42,526 bases of DNA, from NCBI GenBank assembly GCA_012517325.1, contig JAAYVF010000092.1, positions 1 through 42,526 on the forward strand. Direction: 5' to 3'. Position 1 is the first letter of the stretch; the number at the start of each line of letters is the position of its first letter. Under the pieces are notes generated by a model. The model ran no database searches. It was not told the DNA's origin and worked only from the letters and a program-made list of their open reading frames with translations. Origin of the DNA: Myxococcales bacterium (GTDB taxonomy: Bacteria; Lernaellota; Lernaellaia; Lernaellales; Lernaellaceae). This document shows positions 17,481-35,138 of this stretch, one piece after another. The position numbers were made by a program, and so were the translations under genes.

Positions 17481-18562
17481 CGCCCCTCCCCGTCGGACAA
17501 ACGAATGCGGTTCGTTTCCCGCCATTGCGCATCCCAACCGACCAGGCAGTTCGCCGCCTCCAGACCGATCCAGAGCCGATCCCGGTCGGCCCACAAAACC
17601 CGCGGCGCGCCGCCCAGACCGGTTTCGCGGACGATTTTTCCTCCGGCCGGCTCCAGCGCCACGATGCGGTCGCCGGCCCAATCGGCCGCCACCACGAGGT
17701 CTTGAAACAACACCACATCGGTCAGGCCGCGGCCGACATCGGTTTGCCAGGCTTTGGCGCCATCGGCCAGCCTAAACCCCTCGATCACGCCGTCCTGCCC
17801 GCTGGCCACGATTACCAGATCGCCGTCTAACAAAGCGGCGACCGGCCGTTTGGCGGTGACGGACCGCCATTGCAACTCGCCGTCGGCTCGCCGCAAGCTG
17901 GCGACGCTTTCCGCCTGATCGTTCACCAGGATGAGCGAATCCCCGGCCGGAAGCAGCGACCAACCGCCGCCGGATTCCTCGTGCCAGGTTTCATTGCGAA
18001 ACAACCGCACTTTGTCGTCGACCGCGAGACGCGCCGGCAGAGGTGGCTTTTCGTGCAATATAAACCACTCGAAGGTTCCGTATTCAGGCAGGTAAAAATG
18101 ACGCTTTTTCTCGTCATCAACCCGGCCTTTTAAGAAACCGGCGATCCAGGCGCCGTCCGGCTCCACGGCCATTCCCTGCACATAGCAACTGGGAGAAAAG
18201 GCGATTTCACGCGTCGATAAATCAGCCGCCCGCAACCAGGTGACGACGCCGCGCAACAGACTCAGTACGTAGAAATCGTTCCGTCCGTCGGGGATCAACC
18301 GAAGGGGCCGGGGAACGGTGATCGGCTGCGAGCGCGAAGCAGTGATGGACCAGACTTGATTGCTCTGCATTCGGGCCAGAAAAAGCCGCCCGTCACCGCC
18401 GATCAAATCGTTCATGCCGCCGGTTTTCATCGCCCGCGACCAGACGGCGGAATCGGTGGCGGCAAAACGGAGCATTCCGCCGGCCAGCAACGCCACGGCG
18501 CCGATAAAAAGAAGGCGCCCCATCAAGGGGCGCCTTCCGGAATCGCTGACTGATTTGTTCAT
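17477..18562 (-). CDS. Membrane-anchored beta-propeller (PQQ-like) protein
   Basis: The 361-residue product has one N-terminal hydrophobic helix (MGRLLFIGAVALLAGG at about 14-29) that serves as signal anchor. Propeller blades with PQQ/WD-like alternation follow, such as GELQWRSVTAKRPVAALLDG, AKAWQTDVGRGLTDVVLFQD and IVALEPAGGKIV. It is probably periplasmic and tethered to the inner membrane. Two starts are possible. ATG 18562 has only a weak upstream GGGAC. ATG 18523 lies in the loop of a strong terminator hairpin and follows GGAAGG. The gene sits 46 bp after the Cys-rich lipoprotein gene and is translationally coupled to the membrane gene that follows (ATGA). It contains no obvious enzyme motif. 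An assembly or binding role like BamB would be speculation. Confidence 0.7.
   Translation of the reverse strand: MNKSVSDSGRRPLMGRLLFIGAVALLAGGMLRFAATDSAVWSRAMKTGGMNDLIGGDGRLFLARMQSNQVWSITASRSQPITVPRPLRLIPDGRNDFYVLSLLRGVVTWLRAADLSTREIAFSPSCYVQGMAVEPDGAWIAGFLKGRVDDEKKRHFYLPEYGTFEWFILHEKPPLPARLAVDDKVRLFRNETWHEESGGGWSLLPAGDSLILVNDQAESVASLRRADGELQWRSVTAKRPVAALLDGDLVIVASGQDGVIEGFRLADGAKAWQTDVGRGLTDVVLFQDLVVAADWAGDRIVALEPAGGKIVRETGLGGAPRVLWADRDRLWIGLEAANCLVGWDAQWRETNRIRLSDGEGR
18506..18537 (-). terminator. Intrinsic terminator inside the 5' end of the propeller gene
   Basis: On the minus strand GAAGGCGCCCC (18537-18527) and GGGGCGCCTTC (18521-18511) form a perfect 11-bp stem with the 5-nt loop TTGAT. 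Five T residues follow directly (18510-18506). This is a textbook Rho-independent terminator. It most simply ends the pil/lipoprotein transcript, yet it lies within the coding frame of the next gene. Confidence 0.75.
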
Positions 18563-18608
18563 CGCGGTCGAAGTCCCGCGCACGACACCGTCGAGAATGC
18601 CAAACACC

Positions 18609-19439
18609 TTACTTCGTTGCGGTGTCGTCGTCGGCCGACTCGGTGTCGTCATCCGTGGAGGTGCTTTCACCGGCGGTGACGGTGAACTTGACGCCCGCAA
18701 CCGCGGTGCCGACATCGGCGGACAGTTGGTAAGTCATCTCGGCGCCGCAGACATTCGGGTTCGGGATGCGATATTTCACTTCGCTGATGCCGCGATCGTC
18801 GGTCCGGTCGTAATAGGGATTGGCCAACGGGGCGACCGCGCCGGGCACGTCTTCCGGTTTGTACAAATCGCCGCCGGTGGTAACCCAACGGACCTCGATG
18901 TCGTTCATCGGCACGGAACCGCTGGAGGCCGACGAAGAGCCACCCGTCGCCGCCGAGGAAGTCGAAGTGGAAGTGGCCGCCTGGACCAAGGCGCTGACCA
19001 GCCAGTATTGATAGCCGCAACTGCCTTCCTTAGCCCGGAGGGTATTCTGCGCCTGAAGCTTGTTTTTCCGGATTTCACAATAGGTCAGCCAATAGCTGAG
19101 CGTGTCGCAGACATAGGCGGAGCAATCGCCCTCGGAACCGACCCCCGTGGTTTCCACGCAGGACTGGTAAGTAGAAAGAGCGATCTCGCTGCCTTCTCCA
19201 TCTTGAAGCGAGAGCGCGCAGTTGTCGATGCAAGCCTCACGGAAGGAATTGTAGCAGGAGTTCGGCACATTCCAGGTATCGTCGCAGGCAAACGTGACCG
19301 TCTCTTCGGCATCGTAGCCGACCAAAGTGATCGTTGACCCGGCCGGCGCCATCGCCGGATCGGTTTCGCCACAGCCGAAAATATAGGCGCCAATTGACGC
19401 GAGCAAAACGCCAACTGTGACAACCAACAACCGTTTCAT
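18609..19439 (-). CDS. Cys-rich lipoprotein at the end of the pilMNOPQ operon
   Basis: The 276-residue protein begins with a lipoprotein signal (MKRLLVVTVGVLLASIGAYIFGC). The N-terminal half contains nine further cysteines, with one more in the C-terminal half, enough for five disulfides. A Ser/Thr/Ala-rich linker (about 158-180) follows. The C-terminal domain looks like an Ig-type beta-sandwich (EVKYRIPNPNVCGAEMTYQL), and the end is an Asp-rich tail. ATG 19439 has an excellent GAGGAGG five bases upstream, so the longer frame is rejected. The gene follows pilQ after 60 bp on the same strand and precedes a strong terminator. Position and export suggest a periplasmic or outer-membrane partner of the secretin, perhaps a pilotin-like or gating factor. 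I know of no family that fits. Confidence 0.8.
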   Translation of the reverse strand: MKRLLVVTVGVLLASIGAYIFGCGETDPAMAPAGSTITLVGYDAEETVTFACDDTWNVPNSCYNSFREACIDNCALSLQDGEGSEIALSTYQSCVETTGVGSEGDCSAYVCDTLSYWLTYCEIRKNKLQAQNTLRAKEGSCGYQYWLVSALVQAATSTSTSSAATGGSSSASSGSVPMNDIEVRWVTTGGDLYKPEDVPGAVAPLANPYYDRTDDRGISEVKYRIPNPNVCGAEMTYQLSADVGTAVAGVKFTVTAGESTSTDDDTESADDDTATK

Positions 19440-19499
19440 CAATGCCTCCTCATTAGCTCCGCTTGCGCGGATCCTTGACACCGGGTTCCGTTGGCCCGA

Positions 19500-20975
19500 T
19501 CACACCGCCGGGCGATCGCGCACGATGCGCGGGGTGATAAAGATCAACAGCTCGCTACGCTTTTTAATCTGCTCCCGATCCCGGAAGAAAATGCCCAGCA
19601 CGGGGATCCGGGCCAGCCATGGCACCGCCAATTCGGTGCGCGATTCCTCTTCCGAGAAAATGCCGCCGATCACCGAGGTTTCGCCGTTGCGAACCAGGAC
19701 TTCGGTAACCGCTTCTTTTTTGTCGATCGCCGGGTCGCCGGTCGAGGTCGGAATGGAGGTGTTCGGAGCGTTCTTGGCGATTTCGATCTTCATGATGATG
19801 GATTCGTCAGCCGTGACGTGCGGCGTGACGGTCATGTTCAAGTTGGCTTCGATGAACGACAGCGCCGTTTCGCCCTGTTGCCGGATTTGGAACGGGATGC
19901 TCACGCCTTGGGTGATGCTGGCTTCTTTGTTGTCCAGGGTGGTCACTTCCGGACGCGAGATCACGCGGCCTTCGCCGCGGCTTTCCAAGGCGGAGAGCTG
20001 CAGGTCCAGGGCGATCGTATCGTTGACGCTGCCCAGGGTGATGCCGACGCCGCCGCCGCTGCCCAGGCCGATCGCGGCCGGCAGGTTAACCAGATAGTTG
20101 GCGTTGCTGATGCTGGTGATCGAACCGCCCGCGCCGCTAGTGCCGACGGCGGATTGCGACGAGGCGTTGGTTTGCTGGCCGGAGACTTCCGGACCGGTCA
20201 CGCGCACGGAATTGGGGAAAGCCATGCCCGTCGGATTGCCGTGAGCCGCGTCAGCGGTGTACCGACCGCCCCATTTGATACCCATTTCGCGAGTGAAGTC
20301 GGTGCTGGCTTCCACGATACGCGATTGGATGTAGACCTGGGGGGTCTGGCTGTCGAGGCTGGCGATCAGTTGCTTGGCCTTTTTAATGTTCTTTTCGATA
20401 TCCTGGATGACGATGATGTTCGTGCGCTTGTCCACGTTGGCGACGCCGCGGTTGGACAGAATCGAACGAATCTGAACCAACAGATCATCGGCGCTGGCGT
20501 AGCTCACCGGCACCAACGACATGACCAGCGGCTCCAACTGCAAACCGACCTGTTGGCGCGCCAGTTCTTCCTGCCGTTCGGAGGTCAACGTCGAAATCGG
20601 CGCCACGCGCAGAATGTTGCCCTCACGCTCGATCGCCAGTTTCTTCGTCCGCAGGATGATTTCCAACGCTTGGTCCCAGGGGACGTTGTGCAACTTGATG
20701 GTGAGTTTGCCCTGCACGTCGTCGCCCGCCACGATATTCAGGCCGCTGACTTCGCTGATAATGCGCAAAACGGACTTGATATCGGCGTCTTGGAAATCCA
20801 AGGTAATTTTTTTGCCGAAATATTGCTCTTCGGTGAAGGTGGTGTTTTCCGGGCTGATGAACCCACCTTGCTGCGCAAAGGCTGGAAGGGCGACCAGGAG
20901 CATAAAGAGGGACGCCGCAAACAGACCGGGCAACCGGTTTGCGCGCCCAATGCTTCCGCTTCGCGTCGTGGCCAT
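19500..20975 (-). CDS. pilQ: Type IV pilus secretin PilQ (short form)
   Basis: The 491-residue outer-membrane secretin has a signal peptide ending near ALPAFA. It then has an STN/N0-type domain (ITLDFQDADIKSVLRIISEV), an N1 domain (SLVPVSYASADDLLVQI to IIVIQDIEKNIKKA) and the secretin barrel domain (from VYIQSRIVEA to the conserved VPWLARIPVLGIFF and ELLIFITPRIV). It lacks the AMIN domains usual in proteobacterial PilQ, so it is clearly shorter than those proteins. ATG 20975 is chosen because GAGGAGG lies six bases upstream; an earlier in-frame ATG at 21014 abuts the pilP stop and lacks a site. A Gly/Ser-rich insert (about 260-295) lies within the barrel domain. It forms the pore through which the pilus leaves the cell. 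Confidence 0.93.
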   Translation of the reverse strand: MATTRSGSIGRANRLPGLFAASLFMLLVALPAFAQQGGFISPENTTFTEEQYFGKKITLDFQDADIKSVLRIISEVSGLNIVAGDDVQGKLTIKLHNVPWDQALEIILRTKKLAIEREGNILRVAPISTLTSERQEELARQQVGLQLEPLVMSLVPVSYASADDLLVQIRSILSNRGVANVDKRTNIIVIQDIEKNIKKAKQLIASLDSQTPQVYIQSRIVEASTDFTREMGIKWGGRYTADAAHGNPTGMAFPNSVRVTGPEVSGQQTNASSQSAVGTSGAGGSITSISNANYLVNLPAAIGLGSGGGVGITLGSVNDTIALDLQLSALESRGEGRVISRPEVTTLDNKEASITQGVSIPFQIRQQGETALSFIEANLNMTVTPHVTADESIIMKIEIAKNAPNTSIPTSTGDPAIDKKEAVTEVLVRNGETSVIGGIFSEEESRTELAVPWLARIPVLGIFFRDREQIKKRSELLIFITPRIVRDRPAV

Positions 20976-21014
20976 ATGGAGCCTCCTCAGAAGAATCGTT
21001 GTCTCTGATTCCAT

Positions 21015-21596
21015 CTATTTCACGTTTTCGTCCGACCGAAGTCGGATTTTCATCTCGATCGTTTCCGTGCCGTCCGTCCGCCAGCTGATCCGGGTTTCGG
21101 TAACGACGACCGAATCGTCGAAAATGGCGCGGATGATGCCGCCGTTTTTACCGATCACGTCGCCGACGTGCACGGTATAGGACTTGCCGCTCGGATCTTC
21201 GAAGATCGCCAGCGGATTTTCGGTATCGCGCACAACCCCCACCAGTTTGAAGTAGCGCACTTCATACTTCAGCAAGGGGTTGTCCGACGCGCCGCTCATG
21301 ATCGCCGAGGTCGGTTGATACGGACGGAAGGGATCGGGCTTGTTGATCGGATCGTATTGGTGAACCAGACCCACTTCATCCAGCACTTCCTGGGCGGTGG
21401 TCATTTTAATTTCCGTGGTCGCCGCCGGTGATTGCTGGGGAGTGGCGTTTTTCAACTGCGCCAGCTTCTCTTCCGCCGCTTTTTTGGCGTCTTCGGCGCC
21501 TTTCTTGCCGCCGCCGCCACCGAGCAGGCCGCATGCGGTCAAGGCAAACGCCAAGAGCACCAAAACAACTCCGAATTTTAATCCGCGCAAACGCAT
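21015..21596 (-). CDS. pilP: Pilus alignment lipoprotein PilP
   Basis: The 193-residue lipoprotein has the lipobox LTAC at residues 19-22, a Gly-rich then Lys/Ala/Glu helical linker to about residue 75, and a small beta domain. That domain carries the family segment DPFRPY and a KLVGVV strand with a following VGDVIG turn. PilP bridges the PilN-PilO dimer in the inner membrane to the N-domains of the PilQ secretin. The ATG at 21596 has GGAG nine bases upstream. It lies between pilO (22 bp gap) and pilQ (39 bp gap) in the expected order. Nothing is missing compared with the family. Confidence 0.93.
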   Translation of the reverse strand: MRLRGLKFGVVLVLLAFALTACGLLGGGGGKKGAEDAKKAAEEKLAQLKNATPQQSPAATTEIKMTTAQEVLDEVGLVHQYDPINKPDPFRPYQPTSAIMSGASDNPLLKYEVRYFKLVGVVRDTENPLAIFEDPSGKSYTVHVGDVIGKNGGIIRAIFDDSVVVTETRISWRTDGTETIEMKIRLRSDENVK

Positions 21597-21618: not shown

Positions 21619-22272
21619 TTACAGTTTCTTCTTCTTCGCTTCTTGCTTCTCTAACATATCATCGCCCGGCGACGGCGTTTTCGGCTTCGCCGCCTGGGGC
21701 GGTGGCGCCGCCGGAGCGGCCACCGCGGTTTCGCCGGGGGCCAGGAAACGGAACGTGGTGGCGATGCAATTCGCGGAGATCTGAATCTCGCCGTTGTTGT
21801 CGACGGGGCTCGAGAGCTTCAGATTGCTGATGTTCACCACGCGTTTCAGCTTACTGATTTTATCGAAAAAGATGGCGATATTGTGGTAACCGCCCTTGAT
21901 TTCCAGTTCGATCGGGATTTCGGCGTAAAAATCGCGAGGCACTTCCGCATTGGGAGTGACCTTGTTGATTTCCAGGCCGGAAGCCGAGGCCAGGTCATCC
22001 AAGCTGATCAAGAGCGCCTCAATCTGCTTTTTCTCGGGCAACTGTGCGAGTGATTGACCGAGTTGCTGATTGAGGGTCTCGATTTCCCGCTCGATGGGCT
22101 GCAAGACCTGGGCCACCGCTTTGACCTGGTTAAGTTGCGCCGTCAATTCGGCAAGCTGCTTGTCGGCCTGATCGATCTCGTTTTGCTTGACGCGGAATCC
22201 GAAGATGAAATACGCCAGAAAAACCAGAACGACCAATGCCAGAATTATGACGATCTTGACCGTATTACTCAT
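21619..22272 (-). CDS. pilO: Pilus assembly protein PilO
   Basis: The 217-residue protein has a short cytoplasmic start, one transmembrane helix (about 7-26), a coiled coil (about 30-80, heptad-like Gln/Glu/Leu pattern) and a ferredoxin-like periplasmic domain. The domain contains FYAEIPIELEIKGGYHNIA, the typical PilO core. It ends with a Pro/Ala-rich and Lys-rich tail. PilO pairs with PilN in the inner membrane and connects the cytoplasmic PilM ring to PilP. The start at 22272 follows GAGGGTG. The spacing to pilN is 58 bp and to pilP 22 bp. Confidence 0.93.
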   Translation of the reverse strand: MSNTVKIVIILALVVLVFLAYFIFGFRVKQNEIDQADKQLAELTAQLNQVKAVAQVLQPIEREIETLNQQLGQSLAQLPEKKQIEALLISLDDLASASGLEINKVTPNAEVPRDFYAEIPIELEIKGGYHNIAIFFDKISKLKRVVNISNLKLSSPVDNNGEIQISANCIATTFRFLAPGETAVAAPAAPPPQAAKPKTPSPGDDMLEKQEAKKKKL

Positions 22273-22330: not shown

Positions 22331-22924
22331 CTACATCTCTTTCAAGACGTTCAACTGACAATTCAACTGGAACGATTTCACCGGCATGCTCGCGGCGCCC
22401 TTGGTCTTGCCGGCTTGCGCCTCCGCGGTCGAGGAAACCAACTCGACGTTGGAGAAGATCGGCGACTTTTCCAGATTTTCCATGAACAGGGCGATTTGCT
22501 TGTGATCCAGCGAGTAGCCGGAAAGCGACATCGAGGAGGTCGTCTCATTCATTTCGGTGACCCACAACTTGGCGGGAATCGCCCCGGCCAATTCGTCGAG
22601 CAACCGCACCGGCCCCGTTTGCCGCTTCTTCAACGTGCTGATGATTTCCAGCTTTTGCGCCAGGGCGTTGCGCTGTTTGCGCGCTTGTTCCACGAGGCCC
22701 TGATGCACTTTGTACTGCTTGATGTCTTCTTGAATTTGCGCCATCTGCTGTTGCCGTTTGTGCAGTTCGTCCACCATGCGCAAATGGATGAATAGCGACG
22801 CCGCTCCGGCGAGGATCACCGCGATCAAGGCGGAAATGATCCAGGTGAACGGAATCTGCCGGGCTACTTTGACCCGTTTCGGCGCTTTTCGCTTAACCTC
22901 GGGGAGTAGGTTTATTCTGATCAT
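22331..22924 (-). CDS. pilN: Pilus assembly protein PilN
   Basis: The 197-residue protein opens with MIRINLLPE, the conserved cytoplasmic motif by which PilN binds a groove of PilM. A transmembrane helix (about 27-47), a coiled coil (about 50-90) and a small periplasmic domain (KLWVTEMNETTSSMSLSGYS and after) follow. The start overlaps the pilM stop by four bases (ATGA), so PilM and PilN are made in a coupled way, as fits their direct contact. All family landmarks are present. Confidence 0.94.
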   Translation of the reverse strand: MIRINLLPEVKRKAPKRVKVARQIPFTWIISALIAVILAGAASLFIHLRMVDELHKRQQQMAQIQEDIKQYKVHQGLVEQARKQRNALAQKLEIISTLKKRQTGPVRLLDELAGAIPAKLWVTEMNETTSSMSLSGYSLDHKQIALFMENLEKSPIFSNVELVSSTAEAQAGKTKGAASMPVKSFQLNCQLNVLKEM

Positions 22925-23973
22925 TTATCGCCGGGCCTCCGTAAGGCTAATCCGACCACCACGCCGCACAGCGGCGCATTTTCCTTGATGTACTCCAGGT
23001 CGAAGCTCTTGGCGGGAATCTCGATATTGTTGAAGGGGTTGATCATCTCCACCGGAATGCCGACCTGCTGTTCGATGGCCTGCTGCAGGCCGGCCGTTTT
23101 CGCGGCGCCGCCCGACAGGTAGATTTTGGTGATGTGGCCGAAATTGCTGGTCGCGGTGAAGAAATCGAGCGAACGCTGGATTTCCAGGGCGATGCTGCCG
23201 CTGATGGAATCCAGGATGGGTTGGATGTTTTGGGGCGAGCTTTGCTTGCCTTTTTTGATCTGCTCGGCTTCGTCGAAGCTGACCGAAAGCTGTTTTTGCA
23301 ACTCTTCGGTGTAGTGATGGCCGCCGATCGAAATATCGCGCGTGAAGACCGAGTTGCCGTTATGCACGATATTGATGTTGATGACGCTGGCGCCGATGTT
23401 CACCAGGGTGATGACCTTGCCGCGTTCCATCTCGTAGTTGATCTCGTACATGTTCTGGCAGGAAAACGCGTCTACGTCCATCACCACCGGGTTCATCCCG
23501 GCCTCGGTGATCACGGCCACGTAATCGTTGACCATCTCTTTTTTCACCGCCACCAACAGCACGTCCTGGCTTTCCTGATCCGCCGCTTCCATTTCGAGCC
23601 GTTGGTAGTCGATGTTCACTTCGTTGATGTCGAAGGGGATGTATTGCTCGGCTTCCCATTGGATGTTGCCGGCGATTTCCTCTTCGGTCATCAGCGGCAA
23701 GGTGATCTTGCGGATGATCACCGAGTGCCCGCTGACGCTGGTGGCGATGTCGCGCGGAGCCTTGATGTTGTTGTCGGCGATCAGTTTGCGGATCGCATTC
23801 ACCACGGCCGGCGCGTTCATGATCGTGGAATCCACGATCGTCTCGTGCGGCAGCGGCTCGATCCCGAAGTTAATCAACTGATAGCCGTTCTTCGTCTCCG
23901 CCAGTTCAAGGATTTTGATGGAACTGGAGCCGATATCCAGGCCCAAAATGTCCTTCTTCCTCGAAAACACCAT
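22921..23973 (-). CDS. pilM: Actin-like pilus assembly ATPase PilM
   Basis: The 350-residue protein has the actin/FtsA-like fold. The phosphate-1 segment is LGLDIGSSSIKIL, the second nucleotide segment is VINIGASVINI-like (TLVNIGASVININI), and the adenosine motif is KIYLSGGAAKT. It lies on the cytoplasmic face, binds ATP and PilN, and forms the inner ring of the pilus machine. The ATG at 23973 follows TGAGG at seven bases. It is the first gene of the pilMNOPQ-lipoprotein operon and has a clear promoter about 60-90 bp upstream. Confidence 0.95.
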   Translation of the reverse strand: MVFSRKKDILGLDIGSSSIKILELAETKNGYQLINFGIEPLPHETIVDSTIMNAPAVVNAIRKLIADNNIKAPRDIATSVSGHSVIIRKITLPLMTEEEIAGNIQWEAEQYIPFDINEVNIDYQRLEMEAADQESQDVLLVAVKKEMVNDYVAVITEAGMNPVVMDVDAFSCQNMYEINYEMERGKVITLVNIGASVININIVHNGNSVFTRDISIGGHHYTEELQKQLSVSFDEAEQIKKGKQSSPQNIQPILDSISGSIALEIQRSLDFFTATSNFGHITKIYLSGGAAKTAGLQQAIEQQVGIPVEMINPFNNIEIPAKSFDLEYIKENAPLCGVVVGLALRRPGDK

Positions 23974-24315: not shown

Positions 24316-27300
24316 CTAATACGCGCAACCGGACGGGATGATTCCTTCAAACCTGATTTCCGCCGCCGGCGTGATTTCCATACCGCTGCAGGCCGCGTTC
24401 GGATTTCTCGTCGTGTCATTGAGCCAGCAATCCCGCGGCGGGGTGCCGCCGGCCGCCGAGGTATCGATGCGCGTTTCAATGGTGTAGCAGTAATACCGCT
24501 GGCGAGCCGATCCGCCGATACTCTGGAATTTACGAGGCACGTAATCCCAGAATTGCCCGCCGAGGTAATCGCCCCAATCCTGCACCTGGAAGCGAGTCAG
24601 GTAATCGTAATTGGTGGTCAACATGGCCGGGTTGGTACGCGTCGCATAAGTCAGCCACCAGGGAGTGTTTGTTGCCCAGGCGCCGAGGCCGGTCCAATAA
24701 ATCGGATAGTACCGCGGATCCAATTTCCCGACGACCGGACCCGTGTAGTAATTCCAGTAGGTGGAAACGTCGGTGTCCGCGTAATACACGCCCGGCGAGG
24801 TGGTATCGGCTCGCACCAGCCATTCTTTGGTCGGCCACTGAGGATAGCCGGAACAATAGATCGTCAACCCCCCGGATTCACCATTCCATTTCTCGTAGCG
24901 CGCGATGCGATACCACAGCCGGTCTTTTTGCGTCTGGTTCAGCAAGGGCCGAGGATAGGTGGTGCCGGACGTCGGGGCCGGTTTGGCCAGGTTATCGTTC
25001 CAGGCGAAGTAATTTTCATAGTAGCAGGCATTCATGATGTTGCCTGGAGTGTTGGTTTTGTTGTACGCGGAAGAGGAGCTCCGAATCGTCACCGGGCCCG
25101 GCTCCAGACCGATGATATCGGCGCCCAACATGACCCGGTGGGAGCAACCGTTGCTGCAGGTCAGATTCAGGCTGTAGCGATAGAACTGGCCGGAGGTCTG
25201 TAGCGAACGCGGATGCTCCATATAGTAGCGGGTTCCGGTCGCCCACGTGCCCGGCGACAAGGTAGTCGCCGTGTACCAAACGCAATTGTTGGAAGAGGGG
25301 GCCGTACAATAATCCAGCGTCACCGACGAGCTATCCGGCGGTTTGACATCCCAATACCAACTGACGTAGATGCTGTCGTTGGCCGGCGTGTAGGCGGAGT
25401 AGGCATCGCCGTAATAGGATGCCTGGAACGAGAAGATGGAGGCCGCATTGGGAAGCGCGACGCAAGAGTCGTTGCAGGTAAAGCCGCCTGAGCTCGGCAA
25501 GCTATGGCCGAAAACCCAGGGGCTCGCCGGTGCACCCGTGGAGATATTGGCGTTAACCGCCGCGACGATATAAGAATAAAGGTCTTCGGTCTGGTTGCCT
25601 AAGGTGGGATAAATGATCGGGTAATACCCGGCGCTTGTCGGAAAACCGGAAGGCTGACCATTCGCGGTCATTGTAGCGCCCAAATGGGTGTTGTCACCCG
25701 ATGTGTTCTGATCGTAAAGCGTCGCGGTATCGCTGAAGGTATAAGTCCGTGGACTCCCAGTGCCACTGCTCGTAATGGGAACGCCCGCGAAAACCAGAAG
25801 CAAACCCGCATCAACAAAAACGCCATCGTTGTTCGCGGTATCAAGCACATTGCTGGGCCAGGCAGAGGCCTTTCTGCGATAAATGTAGTAATAGTTCGGC
25901 CGATTCGCCGCGGTCGGGCAAAATTGATCGAGACTGGCGTTGAAGGTGACGCCCAGGCCCGCATTGGTTGCTACCCCAGGAATCCAATCCAGTTGGGTGA
26001 TATCGGAGACCGCCGTGATCGTCGGCGGCGAGAACCTGGCGCGGGAAACACTGCCGCCCAAACCCGTGGAGGCCGGATCGAAACTCTGCGATTCGATCAA
26101 CGGGTAATAAGGATTTCCGGCCTTTTGGGTAGTCGGCGTGGATAAGCACTTGGTGCTTGGGTTGTAGGTGGCGACTTCATAATAGTAATAATTTCGTTCG
26201 GAACCCGACCATTGGTTGCCTTGCCGCGGCGGTTGCACGCCGCCCACCCGGCCGACATTACCGTACTCGTCCCGATAGACGTAATAACCGTTCCAGGTAA
26301 ACAATGTCGGGTTGGGATCGGTTTCCGCGGCGGTCGCCAGGGCGTTGAACAACGTGCTGGTAGTGGGCACCGAGCTGGTTGGGAAGCTGCTGATCGGCAC
26401 CTGGGCGATCGGGAAAGTGCGCGCGTTCACCATCGTACCGTTGTCAGCTCCCAGATCAGCGCGATAGATCCAATATTCGCCGTTGGCCGGTTCGGTGGCC
26501 GGTTTATACCAAACGAGGGTGATGCTGCCCATCGAGGAATTGGTGTAACAGGGCGAATCGAAGGCGTAGAGGCTGCCATCGAGCGGCGCCAATACCGCGG
26601 TCTGGGTCTGCGTGGCGGACAGCGTACCGGAAGCCGTGCGGCCGTCACCGCAATCCACCGCGACGATCTGGTAATAAAAAGTCGATAATTCGGTAGATTT
26701 CGTCGCCATATCGAAGTCGGTATAGGCGTAGGCCGAGCTTCCCGTCGCCGGAATCAGGCCCAGGAATTTACCGACCGCCGAGCCGCCACTCGGGTTCGAA
26801 GAGTAGCGCATGACTTCGTACCATTGCACGTCGTTGGATCCGGCGCCGTCGTCGGAACTGGCGGACCAGGCCAATTTGATCTGGGCACCGCACTGATCCA
26901 CCGCCGCCGTATTCAAGGTCGGTGCGGTCGGCGGGCCGCCGCAATCGGATTTATTCTTAAAATTTAGATTGCGCGGCTCCACCGCGGTGCGGACCCAGGC
27001 TTCCCGGTAATGGAAGTTGTATTCGCGTTTGTGGTGATACGAAGGATCGGGCTTGCTGGCCATGGTGGTGATGTTCAATTCGACCCGGTGAATCACCGAA
27101 TCCAGAATATTGCGATCGATCCGGCCGTTGCGGTTGATGTCCAGTGTGGTTTCTCTATTGGTGCTCGTCCCCACCAGATAAATGGCTCCGCCATTGGAAG
27201 CGGTCACGGTTTGGGTGGTGCCGTCAGGTTTGGTGTAGGAAAAGGAATAGGAGCCACCCAGCAAAGCGGCGATTTCCGCGTCGCTCAGATGACCATCAGC

Positions 27301-28026
27301 ATTGGAATCGCCCCACAAAGTATCGGGAGTGCTGGGATTGAAATCGAAATCGCCCCAATAGGTGAACAGCGGCACCAGGTGTCGTAAGGGAGGATCGGAA
27401 TTGGCGATGTTGTAATAACCCGAACTGCCGCTGTCATACCGTACCCCGAAAGCGATGATATCGTCGGTCACGGTGGTGCCGGTGGCATCGGCGGCATGGT
27501 AGGACTGACGCCGCAATACCCGGTCGAGCGTGGACCAACTGAAATCGCGCTCGTCGCTCAACGGCGAGGTTTGCGCGTCATGCAGGTAATAACGGATCGT
27601 TTCGGAGAGGTTCGGCCAATCGGCCGCGCCGCCGGAACCCGGCGCCGTCATGGGAGTATACGGCGTATCGGGACCGCCGAAGGCGACGGTGGTGGTGGGA
27701 TGACTCAAGCCGCTATCGGTATCGGCATTGAACACAAATTCCCAGGGCGCCGCATAGATAATGGCTTCCTGTCCCCAATCGGTTTCCACGTTGCGGCCCA
27801 TCATCATGATATCGCTTTGCATCTTGGCCAGGGCGCTACGACCCATCTGCTGGATTTCGACCAGGTCTTCCTGTTGCATAACGGCTTTATCGTAGGCGTT
27901 GAAAACCGTGAAAATCGCCAAAACCAACACCGCGGTCAGCAGCAGCGCCAGCATCAATTCGATGAGGGAAAAGCCGCCCTGCCCGGCGGAGGTCCGTTTC
28001 GCGAATCGCGTTTGCTTGGCTCGCAT
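24316..28026 (-). CDS. Giant PilW-like prepilin (1236 aa) with EF-hand and fibronectin-like modules
   Basis: A prepilin peptidase site QGG/FSLIE (cleavage after Gly18, Glu at +5) and a hydrophobic pilin helix (19-43) identify a type IV prepilin of the PilW/PulJ kind. Ordinary PilW-like proteins have roughly 200-350 residues; this one has 1236. Residues 240-251 (DSNADGHLSDAE) form a complete EF-hand calcium loop, and 296-304 (DINRNGRID) is a second, incomplete, dockerin-like loop. From about residue 366 come several beta-sandwich modules resembling fibronectin type III (PPTAPTLNTAAVDQCGAQIK, then VWYKPATEPANGEYWIYRAD). Paired cysteines occur through the C-terminal half. The ATG at 28026 follows AGGGAGAG. 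It is last in a four-gene minor-pilin operon. It probably sits at or near the pilus tip and could be an adhesin. The enzyme-like or binding role is not shown by sequence. Confidence 0.85.
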   Translation of the reverse strand: MRAKQTRFAKRTSAGQGGFSLIELMLALLLTAVLVLAIFTVFNAYDKAVMQQEDLVEIQQMGRSALAKMQSDIMMMGRNVETDWGQEAIIYAAPWEFVFNADTDSGLSHPTTTVAFGGPDTPYTPMTAPGSGGAADWPNLSETIRYYLHDAQTSPLSDERDFSWSTLDRVLRRQSYHAADATGTTVTDDIIAFGVRYDSGSSGYYNIANSDPPLRHLVPLFTYWGDFDFNPSTPDTLWGDSNADGHLSDAEIAALLGGSYSFSYTKPDGTTQTVTASNGGAIYLVGTSTNRETTLDINRNGRIDRNILDSVIHRVELNITTMASKPDPSYHHKREYNFHYREAWVRTAVEPRNLNFKNKSDCGGPPTAPTLNTAAVDQCGAQIKLAWSASSDDGAGSNDVQWYEVMRYSSNPSGGSAVGKFLGLIPATGSSAYAYTDFDMATKSTELSTFYYQIVAVDCGDGRTASGTLSATQTQTAVLAPLDGSLYAFDSPCYTNSSMGSITLVWYKPATEPANGEYWIYRADLGADNGTMVNARTFPIAQVPISSFPTSSVPTTSTLFNALATAAETDPNPTLFTWNGYYVYRDEYGNVGRVGGVQPPRQGNQWSGSERNYYYYEVATYNPSTKCLSTPTTQKAGNPYYPLIESQSFDPASTGLGGSVSRARFSPPTITAVSDITQLDWIPGVATNAGLGVTFNASLDQFCPTAANRPNYYYIYRRKASAWPSNVLDTANNDGVFVDAGLLLVFAGVPITSSGTGSPRTYTFSDTATLYDQNTSGDNTHLGATMTANGQPSGFPTSAGYYPIIYPTLGNQTEDLYSYIVAAVNANISTGAPASPWVFGHSLPSSGGFTCNDSCVALPNAASIFSFQASYYGDAYSAYTPANDSIYVSWYWDVKPPDSSSVTLDYCTAPSSNNCVWYTATTLSPGTWATGTRYYMEHPRSLQTSGQFYRYSLNLTCSNGCSHRVMLGADIIGLEPGPVTIRSSSSAYNKTNTPGNIMNACYYENYFAWNDNLAKPAPTSGTTYPRPLLNQTQKDRLWYRIARYEKWNGESGGLTIYCSGYPQWPTKEWLVRADTTSPGVYYADTDVSTYWNYYTGPVVGKLDPRYYPIYWTGLGAWATNTPWWLTYATRTNPAMLTTNYDYLTRFQVQDWGDYLGGQFWDYVPRKFQSIGGSARQRYYCYTIETRIDTSAAGGTPPRDCWLNDTTRNPNAACSGMEITPAAEIRFEGIIPSGCAY

Positions 28027-28035
28027 CGTCTCTCC

Positions 28036-30579
28036 CTACCAAACACTCGCCGAGATATCGGTCGAGTTGCTTAATTCTTCCCAGGACAGGATATCCCAGG
28101 CCGCGTAACCGTAAGGCACCCGGCCGTAGGTGGTGATCAGCCGCGGCATCGGCGGCAGCATGTAATCCAATCGCGGATCGCGAACGTAGTTGACGCCCGA
28201 GAACCCGATCCGGTTGCAGGCCGCGCCGGTTCCCTGACTGCATCCGGAAACGCCCGAACCGAATTGATAGTCGTAAGCCAGGCGACCGGGGATGTTCTGG
28301 ATCACCGCGCCGACGATCGTCAACCGCCCGGAGCTGTTGCCGCCGTTCAGGGCATTATCGAAACTGCCGCCGGACGTGTAGGCCGAATCGTTGGTGGCCG
28401 ATCGGGTTCGATAGGTATTGTAGGTGCGCGGCATGACGTACAAACCGGTTTGAAAATTTTGAATCTCGGAAGTGGTGACAACGGAGCAGGAAATGGAACC
28501 GCCGGACGCCGTGCACGTCTGGCCGTAGGACATCATCACCGCGTGGATATCCTCGTCGCCGATGTCGTCGTAGACCGGGACATAGTCGGTGCGACCGGTG
28601 GGCGGGAAAGCGGTGGCGCCGGTCGCCGACGGATTGTAAGTCGGGTCGGACCAATCATCCCGCCAGGGATGATTGCGCATGATCGCCGCATTCATTCCGG
28701 TCCGCATTTCCGGGTAGCTGTTGGGGATGATGATGTTGCCGCCGGCATACAAACCCAAAATATCGGCTTGTTTCGGATCCAATAAGGCGCCGGCATGAAC
28801 GCGGGTCGGATTGTTTTCGTATTCGATTTCGTGGTCGATATAAATGTTGCCGCTGGCCACGATCGTCAACTGGCCGTCGAGGATGCCCGAAACGATCACG
28901 TCGCCTTCCACATAAATAATACCGCTGTAAGTGCCGCTGCCGGTGCAGCTCGCGCCGGTCATGCCGGATACCGCCATGCCGCGGCTCGGCACGTAAATGA
29001 ATTCGTAGGTGCCGGTACCCGGCAAGCCATTGGTGGTAGAAAGAGTATTATCGATGTCCCCGCGCGGTATCGCATAGGCATCGTCCGGTTCGAAAGTCTT
29101 GGAACAGCGGCGATTGGGGGTGAAAGAAAAGCTGGCGTTGCTGCTGTACCACATCTGAGCGCCCTGATTCATCATGGCCAGGTGCCGCTTTTTCATGGTG
29201 TCGCCATAAAAAGCGGCGCGCATGTAACCTTCCTCGGTATCGGCGATCGCCTGGGAGCCCGGAGTGCCGTTGTAGCGCAGGGGCACCTTATAAAGCATCA
29301 TCGTGCCCGGATCGTCGTTGGCGAAGGCGTTCATGTTCGGACCGGTTCCAGGGTTGATCGAAGGGGTAATCGCAGAGGCGACCCGGTACATGCCCGTCAT
29401 GTCGGTACTGGAAGAAGGCACCACGTACGGATCGGTCGACGACCCGTCTGAATTGATGTCGTTGCGGAAGATGATGCGATACGCCCATTTGTAGGAACTG
29501 CCGCTCGGCGTCGGGTCGGGCAGAATCCAATCGTAGACTTGCGGCGAGGTGTTGTGGTAACCGCCGCTGGAATTGTCGGCGAGGATGCCGATCGGCGGCA
29601 TCAAAACCGATTTGGCGTTCGGCCGCATGCTGCGGTCGGCGTCGGGCCATTTGTTGGTGGCCGAATTGATGCTGATGCCGCCCAGGGTCTGGTTTTTGGC
29701 GGTTTCGTAATAATTGGGCGCCCGCCAACGAACCTGGCCGCGGAAATCGGGCAAGCCCCGCATGAACAACCGGCCGGGATTGGTGAGGTCCGTGACATAG
29801 CCGGTCGCGCCGGAATAGGCGACGTTGCTGACATAGACGTCGCCTTCGAAACGATCCCTGGCCAGGGTGCTGTCGACCGGATCCGCGATGCCGGTGCCGT
29901 CCATCAACACCGTCTGGCAATTCCACCAGGTCGTGCTGTCGCCCGAACAGGATTCGCCCCAGCGAGCCGTTTTACGCGCGGACGGTTCGTTGTTCATGGC
30001 GTAGTAGGCAAAATCCCAGACCGACCGCGGTTTGGCCCGGATGCGGAACACTTTGGAAAACAAGGCGCTGCCGCCGGTGCCCGGATTGTAGGCGGTGACG
30101 CGGGCGGTAATGGCGATCGGCCGGGACACACCGCGATCCCACCAGCCCTCGAAATCCAGCGGATCGATATAGGCATCGACTTTGTACTGGGAGTTGGAGG
30201 CGATGTAGTCGTTGCTCGTGCCCATGATCAGGGCCGAGGCGCTGCTGAGAATTTGTTTGGGAGAAAGCGTGTTGGCGGCGTTGGGGTTGGTATAGACGGC
30301 GGTTGGCGGAGTCGGATCGTACCCCAGGCCGTAGGTGCTGGAACTCGCGACCGTGAACAAACCGCCGTCCAGATAATGCAGGTGCAACAGGATGCGGTCC
30401 ATACTTTGTTCGGCGATCGCAAACAGGTATTGGTCTTCCGCCAGGTTGGTGGTCAGGTACTGCTCGCTGACGCTGCTGAACATCGACAAGACGCCCAGAC
30501 CCGTCACCATGAGCAGAATCATCATCGCCGCGACGACCGCGTAACCCTTGTTCGCTCCGGCTTTACGGTAGTTGACCAT
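28036..30579 (-). CDS. Large PilX-like minor pilin (847 aa) with beta-helical region
   Basis: The N-terminus NKGYAVVAAMMILLMVTGLG followed by Glu/Gln/Asn-rich helix matches the PilX N-terminal family: Gly before an aromatic residue, a long hydrophobic helix and no Glu at +5. The body is far longer than usual. A stretch near residues 545-610 (GIIYVEGDVIVSGILDGQLT, then NIYIDHEIEY and GGNIIIPNS) has the short-strand periodicity of a right-handed beta-helix, as in bactofilin-like or polysaccharide-associated domains. Cysteines are few. The start is placed at ATG 30579 because AGAGG, overlapping the stop of the upstream gene, lies six bases before it but directly abuts the alternative ATG at 30585. 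Probably a core-tip minor pilin. Large size and the beta-helix are unusual. Confidence 0.8.
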   Translation of the reverse strand: MVNYRKAGANKGYAVVAAMMILLMVTGLGVLSMFSSVSEQYLTTNLAEDQYLFAIAEQSMDRILLHLHYLDGGLFTVASSSTYGLGYDPTPPTAVYTNPNAANTLSPKQILSSASALIMGTSNDYIASNSQYKVDAYIDPLDFEGWWDRGVSRPIAITARVTAYNPGTGGSALFSKVFRIRAKPRSVWDFAYYAMNNEPSARKTARWGESCSGDSTTWWNCQTVLMDGTGIADPVDSTLARDRFEGDVYVSNVAYSGATGYVTDLTNPGRLFMRGLPDFRGQVRWRAPNYYETAKNQTLGGISINSATNKWPDADRSMRPNAKSVLMPPIGILADNSSGGYHNTSPQVYDWILPDPTPSGSSYKWAYRIIFRNDINSDGSSTDPYVVPSSSTDMTGMYRVASAITPSINPGTGPNMNAFANDDPGTMMLYKVPLRYNGTPGSQAIADTEEGYMRAAFYGDTMKKRHLAMMNQGAQMWYSSNASFSFTPNRRCSKTFEPDDAYAIPRGDIDNTLSTTNGLPGTGTYEFIYVPSRGMAVSGMTGASCTGSGTYSGIIYVEGDVIVSGILDGQLTIVASGNIYIDHEIEYENNPTRVHAGALLDPKQADILGLYAGGNIIIPNSYPEMRTGMNAAIMRNHPWRDDWSDPTYNPSATGATAFPPTGRTDYVPVYDDIGDEDIHAVMMSYGQTCTASGGSISCSVVTTSEIQNFQTGLYVMPRTYNTYRTRSATNDSAYTSGGSFDNALNGGNSSGRLTIVGAVIQNIPGRLAYDYQFGSGVSGCSQGTGAACNRIGFSGVNYVRDPRLDYMLPPMPRLITTYGRVPYGYAAWDILSWEELSNSTDISASVW

Positions 30580-30588
30580 GATCATCCT

Positions 30589-31206
30589 CTAAAATCCCGC
30601 GATATACTGAAAGCGATAAATCGTGTGAAGGCCGAAATTGTCGTTCCATTGCACCCGCACCCGGATGATCTTGAAATCCTCGCCGCGCGTGCCGGAACTG
30701 CAGTATTCACCGGTGGTGAAAGTGTTGAGCGACGTGCCGGAAGCAATGCCGGCGGATTCGTCGTAGCCCTTGCCGGTTGTCGGCGAGGTTTTAAACAGGT
30801 ACGGAGCACAATCGCCGCCGCCGCTGAACAGCGTATCGTAGCCGTTCCGCAGGATCGTCGTGGTGATGTAATAGGTTTCAATGCCGTTATCGCTGAGAAT
30901 CGCTTCCGTGGCGCCCGAAGGAAACAGCTTGGTATTGGCGATGCCGATGCCGGTGGTATCCGCGGTGGACAAGCCGCTGTTGCCGGCGTAGATCGGCCAA
31001 CTGCGGATCTGCTCCAGCTTGCGGGTCGCCAGATAGTTGGCGTAGCCGAATTTCCCGCCGGAAGTATTGGCCTTGACGTTGAACGCCAACATCGGAACCG
31101 TCGCCAGGATACCGATCACCAGAATGCTGATGGCGACGATGACCTCGATTAATGAATATCCCGTCTGACTGCCGAACCCGGCTCGCCGTGCATTGGTTCG
31201 TTTCAT
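30589..31206 (-). CDS. PilV-like minor prepilin
   Basis: The 205-residue prepilin has a class III signal QTG/YSLIEV (Glu at +5), the hydrophobic helix VIVAISILVIGILATVP typical of PilV/GspI proteins, and a beta-rich head with three cysteines (Cys at about 132, 168 and nearby). It should be cleaved by the prepilin peptidase encoded downstream at 35128-35907 and be part of the complex that primes pilus assembly. It is second in the operon, 81 bp after the FimT-like gene and overlapping the ribosome binding site of the PilX-like gene. Confidence 0.85.
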   Translation of the reverse strand: MKRTNARRAGFGSQTGYSLIEVIVAISILVIGILATVPMLAFNVKANTSGGKFGYANYLATRKLEQIRSWPIYAGNSGLSTADTTGIGIANTKLFPSGATEAILSDNGIETYYITTTILRNGYDTLFSGGGDCAPYLFKTSPTTGKGYDESAGIASGTSLNTFTTGEYCSSGTRGEDFKIIRVRVQWNDNFGLHTIYRFQYIAGF

Positions 31207-31287: not shown

Positions 31288-31914
31288 TTAGTACCAGGAT
31301 TGGGTCTGTCGCGACCACTTCCACAAGCGTATCCGTCCCGTCGGGCCTTCCCAGTCCACCGCCCGCTGGCGGTCGTCGCGTTTGCCGGTGCAGGCTGGGC
31401 AAACGTCTTCATAGGGCGCCAAATAAACCACGCCCTGGTAATTGGCCCCGCCATCGCGGCGGAAATACACGTACATCCGGGAGCAACTCTCGCTGGGATT
31501 GATATCGACTCCGCAAGCGGCATTGCGCCCGGGACTTTTATGCCCCGGAACGTTTTGCATGGTCGGGTAGTATCCGAAGACGATATTTTCTTCCAGTTTG
31601 TAGGTTTTACCCGAGGTGAAGCCGTTCGTCGGATTCTCGTCGTTATCCTTGGCGACCATGTAGGTATCGCCGCTGGAGCCGCCCGGATAGAAATAAACCA
31701 ACGCCGGCGCGTCGTCGTGGATCGCCTGCGCCCGCGCCTGGCGAATCTGCCCGGCCAGATCGCGCGCGGACGAGTTGACTCGGATCACCATGCGGTAATG
31801 CAAAATGGAAAGAAAGGCGACAGCCGCCATGATGCCGATAATGGCGATCACGATGACCAGCTCGATTAACGTAAAACCTCTGCGTCCCTTGGTTTTGGCT
31901 GGGGTTTTCATCAT
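31288..31914 (-). CDS. FimT/GspH-like minor prepilin
   Basis: The 208-residue prepilin has the signal KGRRG/FTLIELVIVIAIIGIMAAVA, the classic type IV N-terminus with Glu at +5. The head starts with SSARDLAGQIRQARAQAI, typical of FimT/GspH. The C-terminal half contains five cysteines, two of them in a CPAC pair. The start at 31914 (with a second ATG directly after) follows AAGGGGG. It is first in the minor-pilin operon and has a sigma70-like promoter about 70-95 bp upstream. Confidence 0.87.
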   Translation of the reverse strand: MMKTPAKTKGRRGFTLIELVIVIAIIGIMAAVAFLSILHYRMVIRVNSSARDLAGQIRQARAQAIHDDAPALVYFYPGGSSGDTYMVAKDNDENPTNGFTSGKTYKLEENIVFGYYPTMQNVPGHKSPGRNAACGVDINPSESCSRMYVYFRRDGGANYQGVVYLAPYEDVCPACTGKRDDRQRAVDWEGPTGRIRLWKWSRQTQSWY

Positions 31915-32086: not shown

Positions 32087-33472
32087 TCATTCCGCGGAGG
32101 CGCGGGAAACCGCTTCTAATTGATAGTCTTTGATTTTATACAGCAAGGCGCGGAGCGACAGATCCAGCATCTTGGCCGCCTTCGTCTTGTTTCCGTGGGC
32201 GCGCTGGAGGGCTTCCTCGATCAGGCGACGTTCGACTTCACGGATGTTTTGCTTGACCGACAAATTGCCGCTGTCGATCGGCAGGCGCTCGCTTTGTTCC
32301 CGCCGAACCCGCTCGGGCAAGTCGGCCGATTCGATCGCCCGCCCGCCCGCCAGCACCACCGCGCGTTCCATGGCGTTTTCCAGCTCGCGGACATTTCCCG
32401 GCCAGGAATAACCCTCGATCGTTCGCGCCGCTTCCGGCGACAATTCACAACTCGGCAAGGTGTGCTGTTTGGCGATTTTCTGGATGAAATGCCGCGTCAG
32501 CAGCGGCAGATCAGCCGGGCGTTCCCGCAGCGGCGGCACGCGCAGATGAAAGACGTTGAGGCGATAATAGAGATCCTCGCGAAAGCGACCTTCGGCCACC
32601 AGACGATCGAGATCGGCGGCCGTGGCGGCGACTACCCTTAGATCGACGGCGATTTCCTGGTTGGAACCGACGGGGCGCAGTTTTTCCTCCTGCAGCACCC
32701 GCAGCAATTTGACTTGCAGCAACAGCGGCAATTCGCCGACCTCATCCAGAAAAAGCGTGCCGCCGCCGGCGGCGGTGATCAAGCCGACCTTGCTGCCGAC
32801 CGCATCGGTGAAGGCGCCCTTGGCATGGCCGAACAGCTCGCTTTCCAGCAAATGCTCGGGGATCGCGCCGCAGTTGATCGCGATGAACGGTCCGGCGCTC
32901 CGCGGGCTGTGGCGGTGGATCATCCGGGCGATCAATTCCTTGCCCGTTCCCGATTCGCCGGTAATCAGAACGGTCGTTTTGAAAGCGGCGATCTTGCGGA
33001 CCAGGCCCAGCAGTTCCCGCATGCGCGGATCGTCGGTCAGGATTTCCCGATCCGCCGCCGCGAGCGCGTCCTGTCGCAACTGCCGGTTTTCGGCCCGCAG
33101 CATCTCCCGTTCGACCGCCCGGTCCAGGACCACCTGGATTTCATCTCGCTTAAAAGGCTTGCTGATGTAATCGAACGCGCCCAGGCGCATCGCCTCGACC
33201 GCTTCGTCGACCGTGCCGTAGGCGCTCATCATGATGATGGGTTTGTCGAAACCGCTCTGGATGGCCCGCCGCAGAAAATCCATGCCGTCGATTTCGGGCA
33301 TGCGCAGATCGCACAGGATGAAATCGGGCGTCAGGCTGGCCAGCGCGTCGAGGGCGACCTTGCCGTTTTCGGCCGTGCTGACGCGAAAACCCCGTTTCTT
33401 CAGCAAAACGCTCAGGGTATAGCGCAGCCCTTCCTCATCGTCGACCACCAGCACGTGCTTCAAATCACTCAT
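32087..33472 (-). CDS. pilR: Sigma54-type response regulator (PilR-like)
   Basis: The 461-residue protein has a receiver domain (acidic pair Asp11-Asp12, phosphorylated Asp55 in LCDLRMPE, Lys105), an AAA+ domain and a Fis-type helix-turn-helix near 420-455. The AAA+ domain has Walker A GESGTGKE at 172-179 and Walker B GGGTLFLDE at 236-244. The sigma-54 contact motif reads GAFTDA (219-224) instead of GAFTGA, a variant also seen in other members. The gene overlaps the kinase gene by 8 nt, so they form a pair. Its place in a pilus locus with pilD suggests that it controls pilin transcription through sigma-54. The identity as PilR rests on context, since NtrC-class regulators are very alike. Confidence 0.85.
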   Translation of the reverse strand: MSDLKHVLVVDDEEGLRYTLSVLLKKRGFRVSTAENGKVALDALASLTPDFILCDLRMPEIDGMDFLRRAIQSGFDKPIIMMSAYGTVDEAVEAMRLGAFDYISKPFKRDEIQVVLDRAVEREMLRAENRQLRQDALAAADREILTDDPRMRELLGLVRKIAAFKTTVLITGESGTGKELIARMIHRHSPRSAGPFIAINCGAIPEHLLESELFGHAKGAFTDAVGSKVGLITAAGGGTLFLDEVGELPLLLQVKLLRVLQEEKLRPVGSNQEIAVDLRVVAATAADLDRLVAEGRFREDLYYRLNVFHLRVPPLRERPADLPLLTRHFIQKIAKQHTLPSCELSPEAARTIEGYSWPGNVRELENAMERAVVLAGGRAIESADLPERVRREQSERLPIDSGNLSVKQNIREVERRLIEEALQRAHGNKTKAAKMLDLSLRALLYKIKDYQLEAVSRASAE

Positions 33473-35138
33473 GCTCGCCGTCAGTCTCCACCGCGGGATA
33501 AATCAGGGTGACCCGCGTGCCCACGCCCGGCCGGCTTTCCACCCGGATGATGCCCCCCAGCGCCGAAACCAGGCGATGGCACACCGCCAGGCCCAATCCC
33601 GTCCCCTTGCCGGGCGGTTTGGTCGTAAAGAACGGCTGAAAAATCTGGCCGAGCACTTCCGGCGCCATTCCGGGACCGTCGTCGGTAATGGAAAAATGAA
33701 CCGTCGGCGCGCCCGGACCCGGCCCGATGCCGTCGGAAAAAACAATACCCCGCGCCTGGAGGTCGGTAAAGGGGACTGCCTCTTCCGGCGGCGCTCCGGG
33801 CAGCCGGGCTTCCATCAATTCCGACTTGTCGAACGCCCGCCGTTCGGCGTCGATCCGGATCGCGCCTTGACCGTTCATCGCGTCGGCGGCGTTCAATAAA
33901 ATATTGAGCAGGGTTTGTTTGAACTGCTGCGAGTTCAGTTCGACCGTCGGCGGCGCGGCGGCGGGTTCGATCGTCACCCGGACCTTGTCCAGGCCGCGCT
34001 GGCCGCGCATCAGTTCGACCGCTTCGCCGGCGGCCCGCAGCAGATCAACCTGATCGGGTTTCTCGTCGCGCAAGCGGGAAAAATCGAGCAGCTCCTTCAT
34101 GATTTTATCGATGCGGGAGATTTCGGTTTCCAACCGGCGGATGATTTCCGACGATTCGCGGCCGCTTTCAGCATCGTGCAGAATTTCCAGATACCCGTAA
34201 ATCGCGCCGAGCGGATTGCCGACTTCGTGCGCGACTCCAGCGGCCATGCGGCCGACGTACGCCAGGCGATCGGAATGCAACAATTGATCGTGCGCCTGTT
34301 GCAGCTCGAGATTCGTCTTGGCCAGCTTTTCCAGTTGCCGCCGATTGACGGCGTCGCGGTCTTGCAGGGTGGTCGCCAGCTTGTGCAACGCGCGGCTCAA
34401 TCGGCCGATTTCGTCCTCGCCGCGGTGGCGCAGGGACACGCGGTAATCGCCCGCCACCATGCGTTCGGTCGCCGCCGACATCGCCTCGACCGGCCGGACC
34501 AGCGCCCACCAGAGAAACAGCGAGCCGAACAGCACGATCACCAGGGCGTCCATCAGGGCGTAGAGCATGAGAATGCGGCGGGTGCCGGCGAGCGCCGCGT
34601 AGAGGTCGTCGAGCGGCAGGCTGAACCGGACGCCGCCCAGAATCTTGCCGCGTTGATAGAGCGGCCCGTAAAAAAGCATTTCGGGCTTGTCGGTCTCGGC
34701 GCCGATCGTGCGGTGCAGCAATTTCCGTTCCTGAATGGCGCGCGCCAATTCCGGTTCGGACAGCACGAAGCCGAGCAACGCCGAACGGCTGTGGCCGATG
34801 ACGTTTTGTTTTTCGTCGACGATGACCAGGCTGGACAATTCGAGGTTGTAGGCCATTTCCTGCACGAACATCGTCAGCGGCGGCAAGGTGGTCCGGCCGG
34901 CGCTATGTTCCCGGACATCTTCCCACAAATCGAAATGCGCCTGCATCGCCAGCAGGATCGACCGGCCCTGTGCGCGCTTCTGCTGAATCAGGTGATGTTC
35001 GAGCAGCCGAATGACGACGAAACCGAACAGGACGACCATCAAAGTGGTCAAGAGCGCCATCAGCAGGACGATCCGCGCGCGCAACCCGGTGATCGGGCCC
35101 AGGCTCATCGACCGCAATAGGCGCTGTTTAATACCCAA
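33465..35138 (-). CDS. pilS: Sensor histidine kinase (PilS-like, two-helix type)
   Basis: The 557-residue kinase has two transmembrane helices (about 22-45 and 190-212) around a periplasmic sensor of about 145 residues, then a HAMP domain (about 212-262), a short coiled coil and the kinase core. The H box is AAGVAHEVGNPL with His304. The ATPase shows an N box (LLNAADAM), DDGPGM and GTGLGLAV. Canonical PilS has six membrane helices, so this protein is built more like AtoS/ZraS kinases; the name is by context. The start is TTG 35138, overlapping the pilD end by 11 nt. ATG 35108 is an alternative that would shorten the basic N-terminus. It overlaps pilR by 8 nt. Confidence 0.8.
   Translation of the reverse strand: MGIKQRLLRSMSLGPITGLRARIVLLMALLTTLMVVLFGFVVIRLLEHHLIQQKRAQGRSILLAMQAHFDLWEDVREHSAGRTTLPPLTMFVQEMAYNLELSSLVIVDEKQNVIGHSRSALLGFVLSEPELARAIQERKLLHRTIGAETDKPEMLFYGPLYQRGKILGGVRFSLPLDDLYAALAGTRRILMLYALMDALVIVLFGSLFLWWALVRPVEAMSAATERMVAGDYRVSLRHRGEDEIGRLSRALHKLATTLQDRDAVNRRQLEKLAKTNLELQQAHDQLLHSDRLAYVGRMAAGVAHEVGNPLGAIYGYLEILHDAESGRESSEIIRRLETEISRIDKIMKELLDFSRLRDEKPDQVDLLRAAGEAVELMRGQRGLDKVRVTIEPAAAPPTVELNSQQFKQTLLNILLNAADAMNGQGAIRIDAERRAFDKSELMEARLPGAPPEEAVPFTDLQARGIVFSDGIGPGPGAPTVHFSITDDGPGMAPEVLGQIFQPFFTTKPPGKGTGLGLAVCHRLVSALGGIIRVESRPGVGTRVTLIYPAVETDGEHE

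Follow-up and report, generated by a model that had tools for sequence, protein, structure and literature searches.

A giant PilW-position minor prepilin with an EF-hand-type loop in its head and a long Fn3-led tail as a candidate fused pilus tip adhesin

The window, i.e. the whole stretch of 42,526 nucleotides analyzed here, which comes from a bacterial lineage without cultured members, carries a pilus gene cluster in the order FimT-PilV-PilX-PilW-PilMNOPQ, with all genes on the minus strand. FimT, PilV and PilX are encoded upstream and PilMNOPQ downstream of an unusually large protein in the PilW position. The same FimT/PilV/PilX neighborhood, which is that of a PilW core minor pilin, was found in another genome of the class (G001). 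The features of the locus are as follows.

24316..28026, minus strand: giant PilW-position minor prepilin, a single intact open reading frame of 1236 aa with collinear homologues
27973..28026, minus strand: class III leader, residues 1-18, ending in G before FSLIE; N_methyl (PF07963); predicted cleavage G18/F19
27274..27309, minus strand: EF-hand loop 1, residues 240-251, DSNADGHLSDAE, conserved across 20 heads
27115..27141, minus strand: loop 2, calcium-type, residues 296-304, DINRNGRID, shared by part of the head family
26617..26949, minus strand: Fn3 module 1, residues 360-470, with a conserved Cys pair; Foldseek match to 3mpc (TMt 0.75, prob 1.00)
24319..26616, minus strand: remainder of the tail, residues 471-1236; weak Fn3 likeness of modules 2-3 by hhalign, modules 4-5 unassigned, low-confidence model
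28036..30585, minus strand: PilX_N protein of 849 aa (PF14341, 25.8 bits), encoded directly before the giant PilW
30589..31206, minus strand: PilV-like minor prepilin of 205 aa (TIGR02523, E 2.9e-8, below cut-off; N_methyl above cut-off)
31288..31914, minus strand: FimT/GspH-like minor prepilin of 208 aa, by profile matches
32087..33472, minus strand: sigma-54 response regulator in a PilR-like position, by profile match
33465..35138, minus strand: sensor kinase in a PilS-like position, by profile match
22921..23973, minus strand: PilM (PF11104, 276 bits)
22331..22924, minus strand: PilN (PF05137)
21619..22272, minus strand: PilO (PF04350)
21015..21596, minus strand: PilP (PF04351)
19500..21014, minus strand: PilQ secretin (TIGR02515, 436.9 bits)

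Several further genes were observed. A lipoprotein-like gene after PilQ (18609-19481, minus strand), which gave no Pfam match, was present close to PilQ in each of the six sister loci. At 2337-10445 on the minus strand, the window encodes a 2702-aa protein rich in TPR repeats throughout, with a 2673-aa open frame antisense to it. The same genome contains a second minor-pilin cluster (L053:3200-6805, on contig G000:C133) with another giant prepilin in a 1202-aa open frame, which matches the Fn3/Ig-like family PF25523 and is followed by a PilX_N gene; large prepilins similar to it occur in G002 and G005. Adjoining this cluster (L053:479-2065, minus strand) lies a gene whose product is probably a lipoprotein and has a long linker rich in Asp/Asn (DDDDNDDN).

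A preceding sequence-only reading had placed the giant gene at exactly these coordinates, leaving the strand unstated, and its class III leader, complete EF-hand loop at residues 240-251, second loop at 296-304 and length of 1236 residues were all confirmed. GGFSLIE occupies residues 17-23, and G18, F19 and E23 are invariant in the alignment of giant PilW homologues. N_methyl was the sole Pfam match of the protein up to E=1 (20.6 bits, cut-off 21.2) and exceeded the cut-off in the homologues of G001-G005. In the same search up to E=1 no Pfam PilW domain was detected beyond the leader, and the N-terminus displayed weak similarity to gspJ. The predicted loop 1 conforms to the 12-residue EF-hand consensus with conserved ligand residues, and weak EF-hand Pfam matches below cut-off were obtained for the G002 homologue. 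Both loops exceed chance expectation: among 20,000 shuffled sequences of the same composition, the strict EF pattern arose in 11 and the second-loop pattern in 86. All 18 cysteines are located at residue 362 or beyond.

Each of the other six genomes of the class has a homologue of the giant PilW head. The five wholly aligned homologues share 40-49% identity with the window protein; those of G002 and G004 are truncated at contig ends, and the G006 homologue (L060) is broken by frame shifts in its metagenome-assembled genome. Three full-length homologues of 1592-1659 aa, counted from the chosen start codon, are collinear with nearly the entire window protein, and GC3 is uniform over the whole open reading frame. 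The frame is therefore sound, and a frame error that would make the tail a separate gene was ruled out; tail and pilin head are encoded by one gene. Six of the seven class members have an intact loop 1, which is lost in G003, whose full tail remains. Loop 2 is present as DxNxNGxxD in all seven. A further C-terminal domain, about 400 residues long, was found in the six sister genomes, in the same gene wherever the gene is complete. This domain is absent from the window genome (G000), where no remnant was detected after the stop codon or elsewhere in the genome, so that the window protein represents a shortened member of the family. The sisters' domain had no Pfam match; a jelly-roll identity, suspected by eye, was not adopted.

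The tail had been described as a series of Cys-containing beta-sandwich modules of fibronectin type. This holds for module 1, which is identified as Fn3 by Foldseek. Its cysteine pair is common to the relatives (C3 and C100 of alignment A5 are invariant), and cysteines and tyrosines of the module are invariant in nine aligned sequences; the pair would be expected to form a disulphide. Modules 2 and 3 resemble module 1 only weakly (hhalign probability 47-48%), and no likeness to module 1 was detectable by hhalign for modules 4 and 5. Profile searches of the PDB gave no match for Fn3 module 1 and, for the head, mostly pilin N-termini at weak E-values. AlphaFold models computed from shallow alignments were of low confidence for both residues 19-608 (mean pLDDT 40.3) and residues 360-1236 (mean pLDDT 37.4), so that their use was restricted to the Fn3 region, where confidence was locally higher. 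The head, inspected for an EF-hand helix-loop-helix, was modelled at pLDDT below 50. Within the limits of these low-confidence models, the first Fn3 alone was recovered of the proposed pilin head with a string of Fn3 domains. Taken together, the giant PilW is predicted to be a modular pilin, with a class III leader and a hydrophobic pilin helix at its N-terminus and, according to the model of module 1, a domain that is not pilus-specific in the same polypeptide.

Head profile A3 matched 25 of 386 genomes. As the profile was built with the loops included, these matches are somewhat biased towards loop-bearing proteins; G337 with its degenerate loop was still recovered. Beyond the class, nine genomes of seven families contain open frames of about 940-1205 aa, and two further families (G103/G369 and G241) have heads without a tail, measuring 283-291 aa in G103 and G241. 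The tails are diverse. SdrD_B and FG-GAP domains were detected by Pfam in G140, G178, G135 and G272, with weaker scores in the latter two, and the G212 tail resembles this type by eye. By eye and without Pfam support, the tails of G160 and G299 were read as Fn3-like repeats and those of G224 and G082 as propeller-like. An Acidobacteria metagenome-assembled genome (L061) combines the head with Fn3-like modules and a YCF48/BNR propeller. The head defines a family spanning several phyla, in which tails are swapped among relatives.

These diverse tails bear on a further explanation, according to which the tail is a non-adhesive spacer or stabilizer serving, for instance, filament mechanics. No ligand-binding site was identified in the tail, and the window copy does without the C-terminal 400-aa domain that its sisters keep. 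However, the corresponding position in relatives is occupied by FG-GAP and YCF48 propellers and by SdrD_B repeats, which are domains common in adhesins, and we regard a mere spacer as very improbable.

Conservation of the calcium loop followed the head. Of 20 heads including those without a tail, 17 have D as the first residue of loop 1, all 20 have D or N as its fifth and 19 have E as its twelfth, in agreement with the expectation that the EF-hand residues are conserved in homologues; loop 2 is present in 10 of the 20. Since loop 1 occurs in the tail-less heads of G103 and G241 and was lost in the fully tailed G003, tail and loop 1 are separable. The loop is an old feature of the pilin head, older than the tails. 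The idea that a calcium switch arrived together with the adhesin is not supported by the same distribution. Because the loop is found in tail-less heads and its loss can leave the tail in place, its most likely role would be to stabilize the globular pilin head by binding calcium.

PilY1 is treated as a core component of the type IVa pilus tip. The whole window genome, a 134-contig draft of 96.75% completeness, was searched with PF05567, and no match was obtained at E<=1, the giant PilW included; PilY1 is absent from the window as well. None of 22 head-bearing genomes had a PilY1 above the Pfam cut-off. Profile A8, built from eight PilY1 proteins, recovered all eight held-out PilY1 genomes and detected no PilY1 in any of the 22 head-bearing genomes, that of the window among them; it contains a PilY1 of family f28, which favors detection in that family. 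A divergent PilY1 overlooked by Pfam was rejected on these grounds, and the absence of PilY1 that had been stated for the cluster holds by both profiles for the searched genome. The combination of a PilY1 gene with non-conserved EF-hand residues, like a frame error, was not encountered.

Among 129 genomes with a strong PilQ match, PilY1 was present in 0 of 19 with the head versus 46 of 110 without it (p=1.4e-4), and 0 of 12 with the head remained when close relatives were collapsed (p=0.003). As 64 of the 110 head-less PilQ-positive genomes likewise have no PilY1, its absence alone is common. In the phylum of G178 the head occurs in 34 of 80 genomes, and PilY1 was found in 2 of 34 genomes with the head versus 31 of 46 without it (p=1e-8), a contrast that mostly sets family f28 against the others and falls to p=0.16 when f28 is excluded. 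The anticorrelation in this phylum is therefore largely a between-clade contrast. G391 and G463 carry both head and PilY1, and family f260 includes members with PilY1 only, with the head only and with both, as expected from turnover.

Coexistence of the two in G391 and G463, together with the draft state of the window genome, is consistent with a PilY1 that exists in the species and is missing from the assembly, the tail then being an addition to a standard tip. As all seven genomes of the class are devoid of PilY1 by two profiles, this seems highly unlikely to us. Another protein might serve as PilY1 analogue, leaving the PilW tail unrelated to that role. A secreted PQQ/BamB-like propeller protein (17477-18715, minus strand) is encoded downstream of PilQ; it matches PF13360 and is kept near PilQ in G001, G002 and G004. 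However, it was not recovered beside PilQ in G003, G005 and G006 by tblastn, and the PF13360 match spans only part of the propeller model, which makes this assignment quite improbable.

We therefore favor, with somewhat better than even confidence, the explanation that the giant PilW belongs to the modular minor pilins and that its fused tail takes the place of PilY1 as tip adhesin. The PilW-type head, composed of the leader, a long helix and a globular domain with the EF-hand-type loop, would polymerize into the type IVa pilus tip complex. The C-terminal tail, beginning with the Fn3 module and its conserved cysteine pair, would project from the head and bind surfaces or other ligands. With the tail built into the pilin itself, no separate PilY1 would be needed to present it, and the tail would supply the binding function that PilY1 gives elsewhere. 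Of the originally proposed fusion of adhesin and calcium switch, the adhesin part gains from relatives that attach different binding-type tails to this head, mostly in genomes without PilY1, whereas a switch fused with the adhesin is not retained.

Exposure of the tail at the tip is deduced from the minor-pilin position, and the argument is weakened by the modelled Myxococcus xanthus complex, in which PilW lies below PilV, PilX and PilY1 (PMC13190605). The very large PilX is accordingly the main rival. The giant PilW could be an ordinary modular pilin decorating the tip complex, while the 849-aa PilX, as uppermost pilin, plays the PilY1 role. Besides the PilX_N protein found here, large PilX-position genes in homologous loci, the placement of PilX above PilW and in contact with PilY1 in the M. 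xanthus model (PMC13190605) and the capping of the type II secretion system tip by GspK with its large domain (PMC4471445) point in this direction. However, apart from PilX_N no Pfam domain was detected in the PilX protein, and its tail had no PDB match by sequence. We consider a PilX in the role of PilY1 unlikely, and prefer the fused PilW adhesin.

Raynaud et al. have already reported modular pilins, Fn3 grafts among them; they list Fn3 (IPR003961) among the 15 commonest grafts and point out that the same effector modules occur in PilY1 and in modular pilins (PMC8179133). Like the bimodular PilB and PilC of Streptococcus sanguinis, the window protein joins a pilin N-terminus to a C-terminal non-pilin binding module (PMC8179133). 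In contrast to S. sanguinis PilB with its one vWA module, it comprises 1236 aa (sisters: 1592-1659 aa), occupies the PilW position of a diderm PilMNOPQ pilus and possesses a conserved EF-hand head. With PilY1/PilC it shares large size, a tie to the minor pilin operon, a calcium motif and a presumed adhesive function, and some of its relatives carry propellers, but of other families. Unlike PilY1/PilC, it is not a separate secreted protein: a class III prepilin leader replaces the type I signal peptide, the C-terminal PF05567 propeller is absent, and the calcium loop resides in the pilin head instead of the propeller. The operon position beside PilX, PilV and FimT and the leader correspond to PilW/GspJ core minor pilins, whereas the much larger size, the EF-hand loop in the head and the long tail do not. 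GspK and ComZ-type proteins likewise bear a large extra domain on a tip-complex minor pilin (PMC8179133, PMC4471445), but that of GspK is inserted in the pilin fold and that of ComZ is a beta-solenoid, whereas the window protein has a C-terminal Fn3-led tail and the PilW position. In the open-access literature searched, no precedent was found for a pilin of this size, for its conserved EF-hand head, for tails exchanged on one head across phyla or for the anticorrelation with PilY1.

On a broader scale, calcium-loop PilW heads of several phyla may have repeatedly gained exchangeable adhesive tails that took over the role of PilY1, which was then dispensed with; we regard this generalization as plausible but somewhat short of an even chance. 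Many PilQ-bearing genomes are without PilY1, and a family of pilins that have one type of head in common but differ in their exchangeable tails, and that occur mostly where PilY1 is missing, provides a concrete candidate for its replacement. Two functions merged in PilY1 would be separated here, the pilin head being responsible for putative calcium binding and the tail for the binding of ligands. If this is true, the pilus tip adhesin of these bacteria would be covalently part of a pilin.
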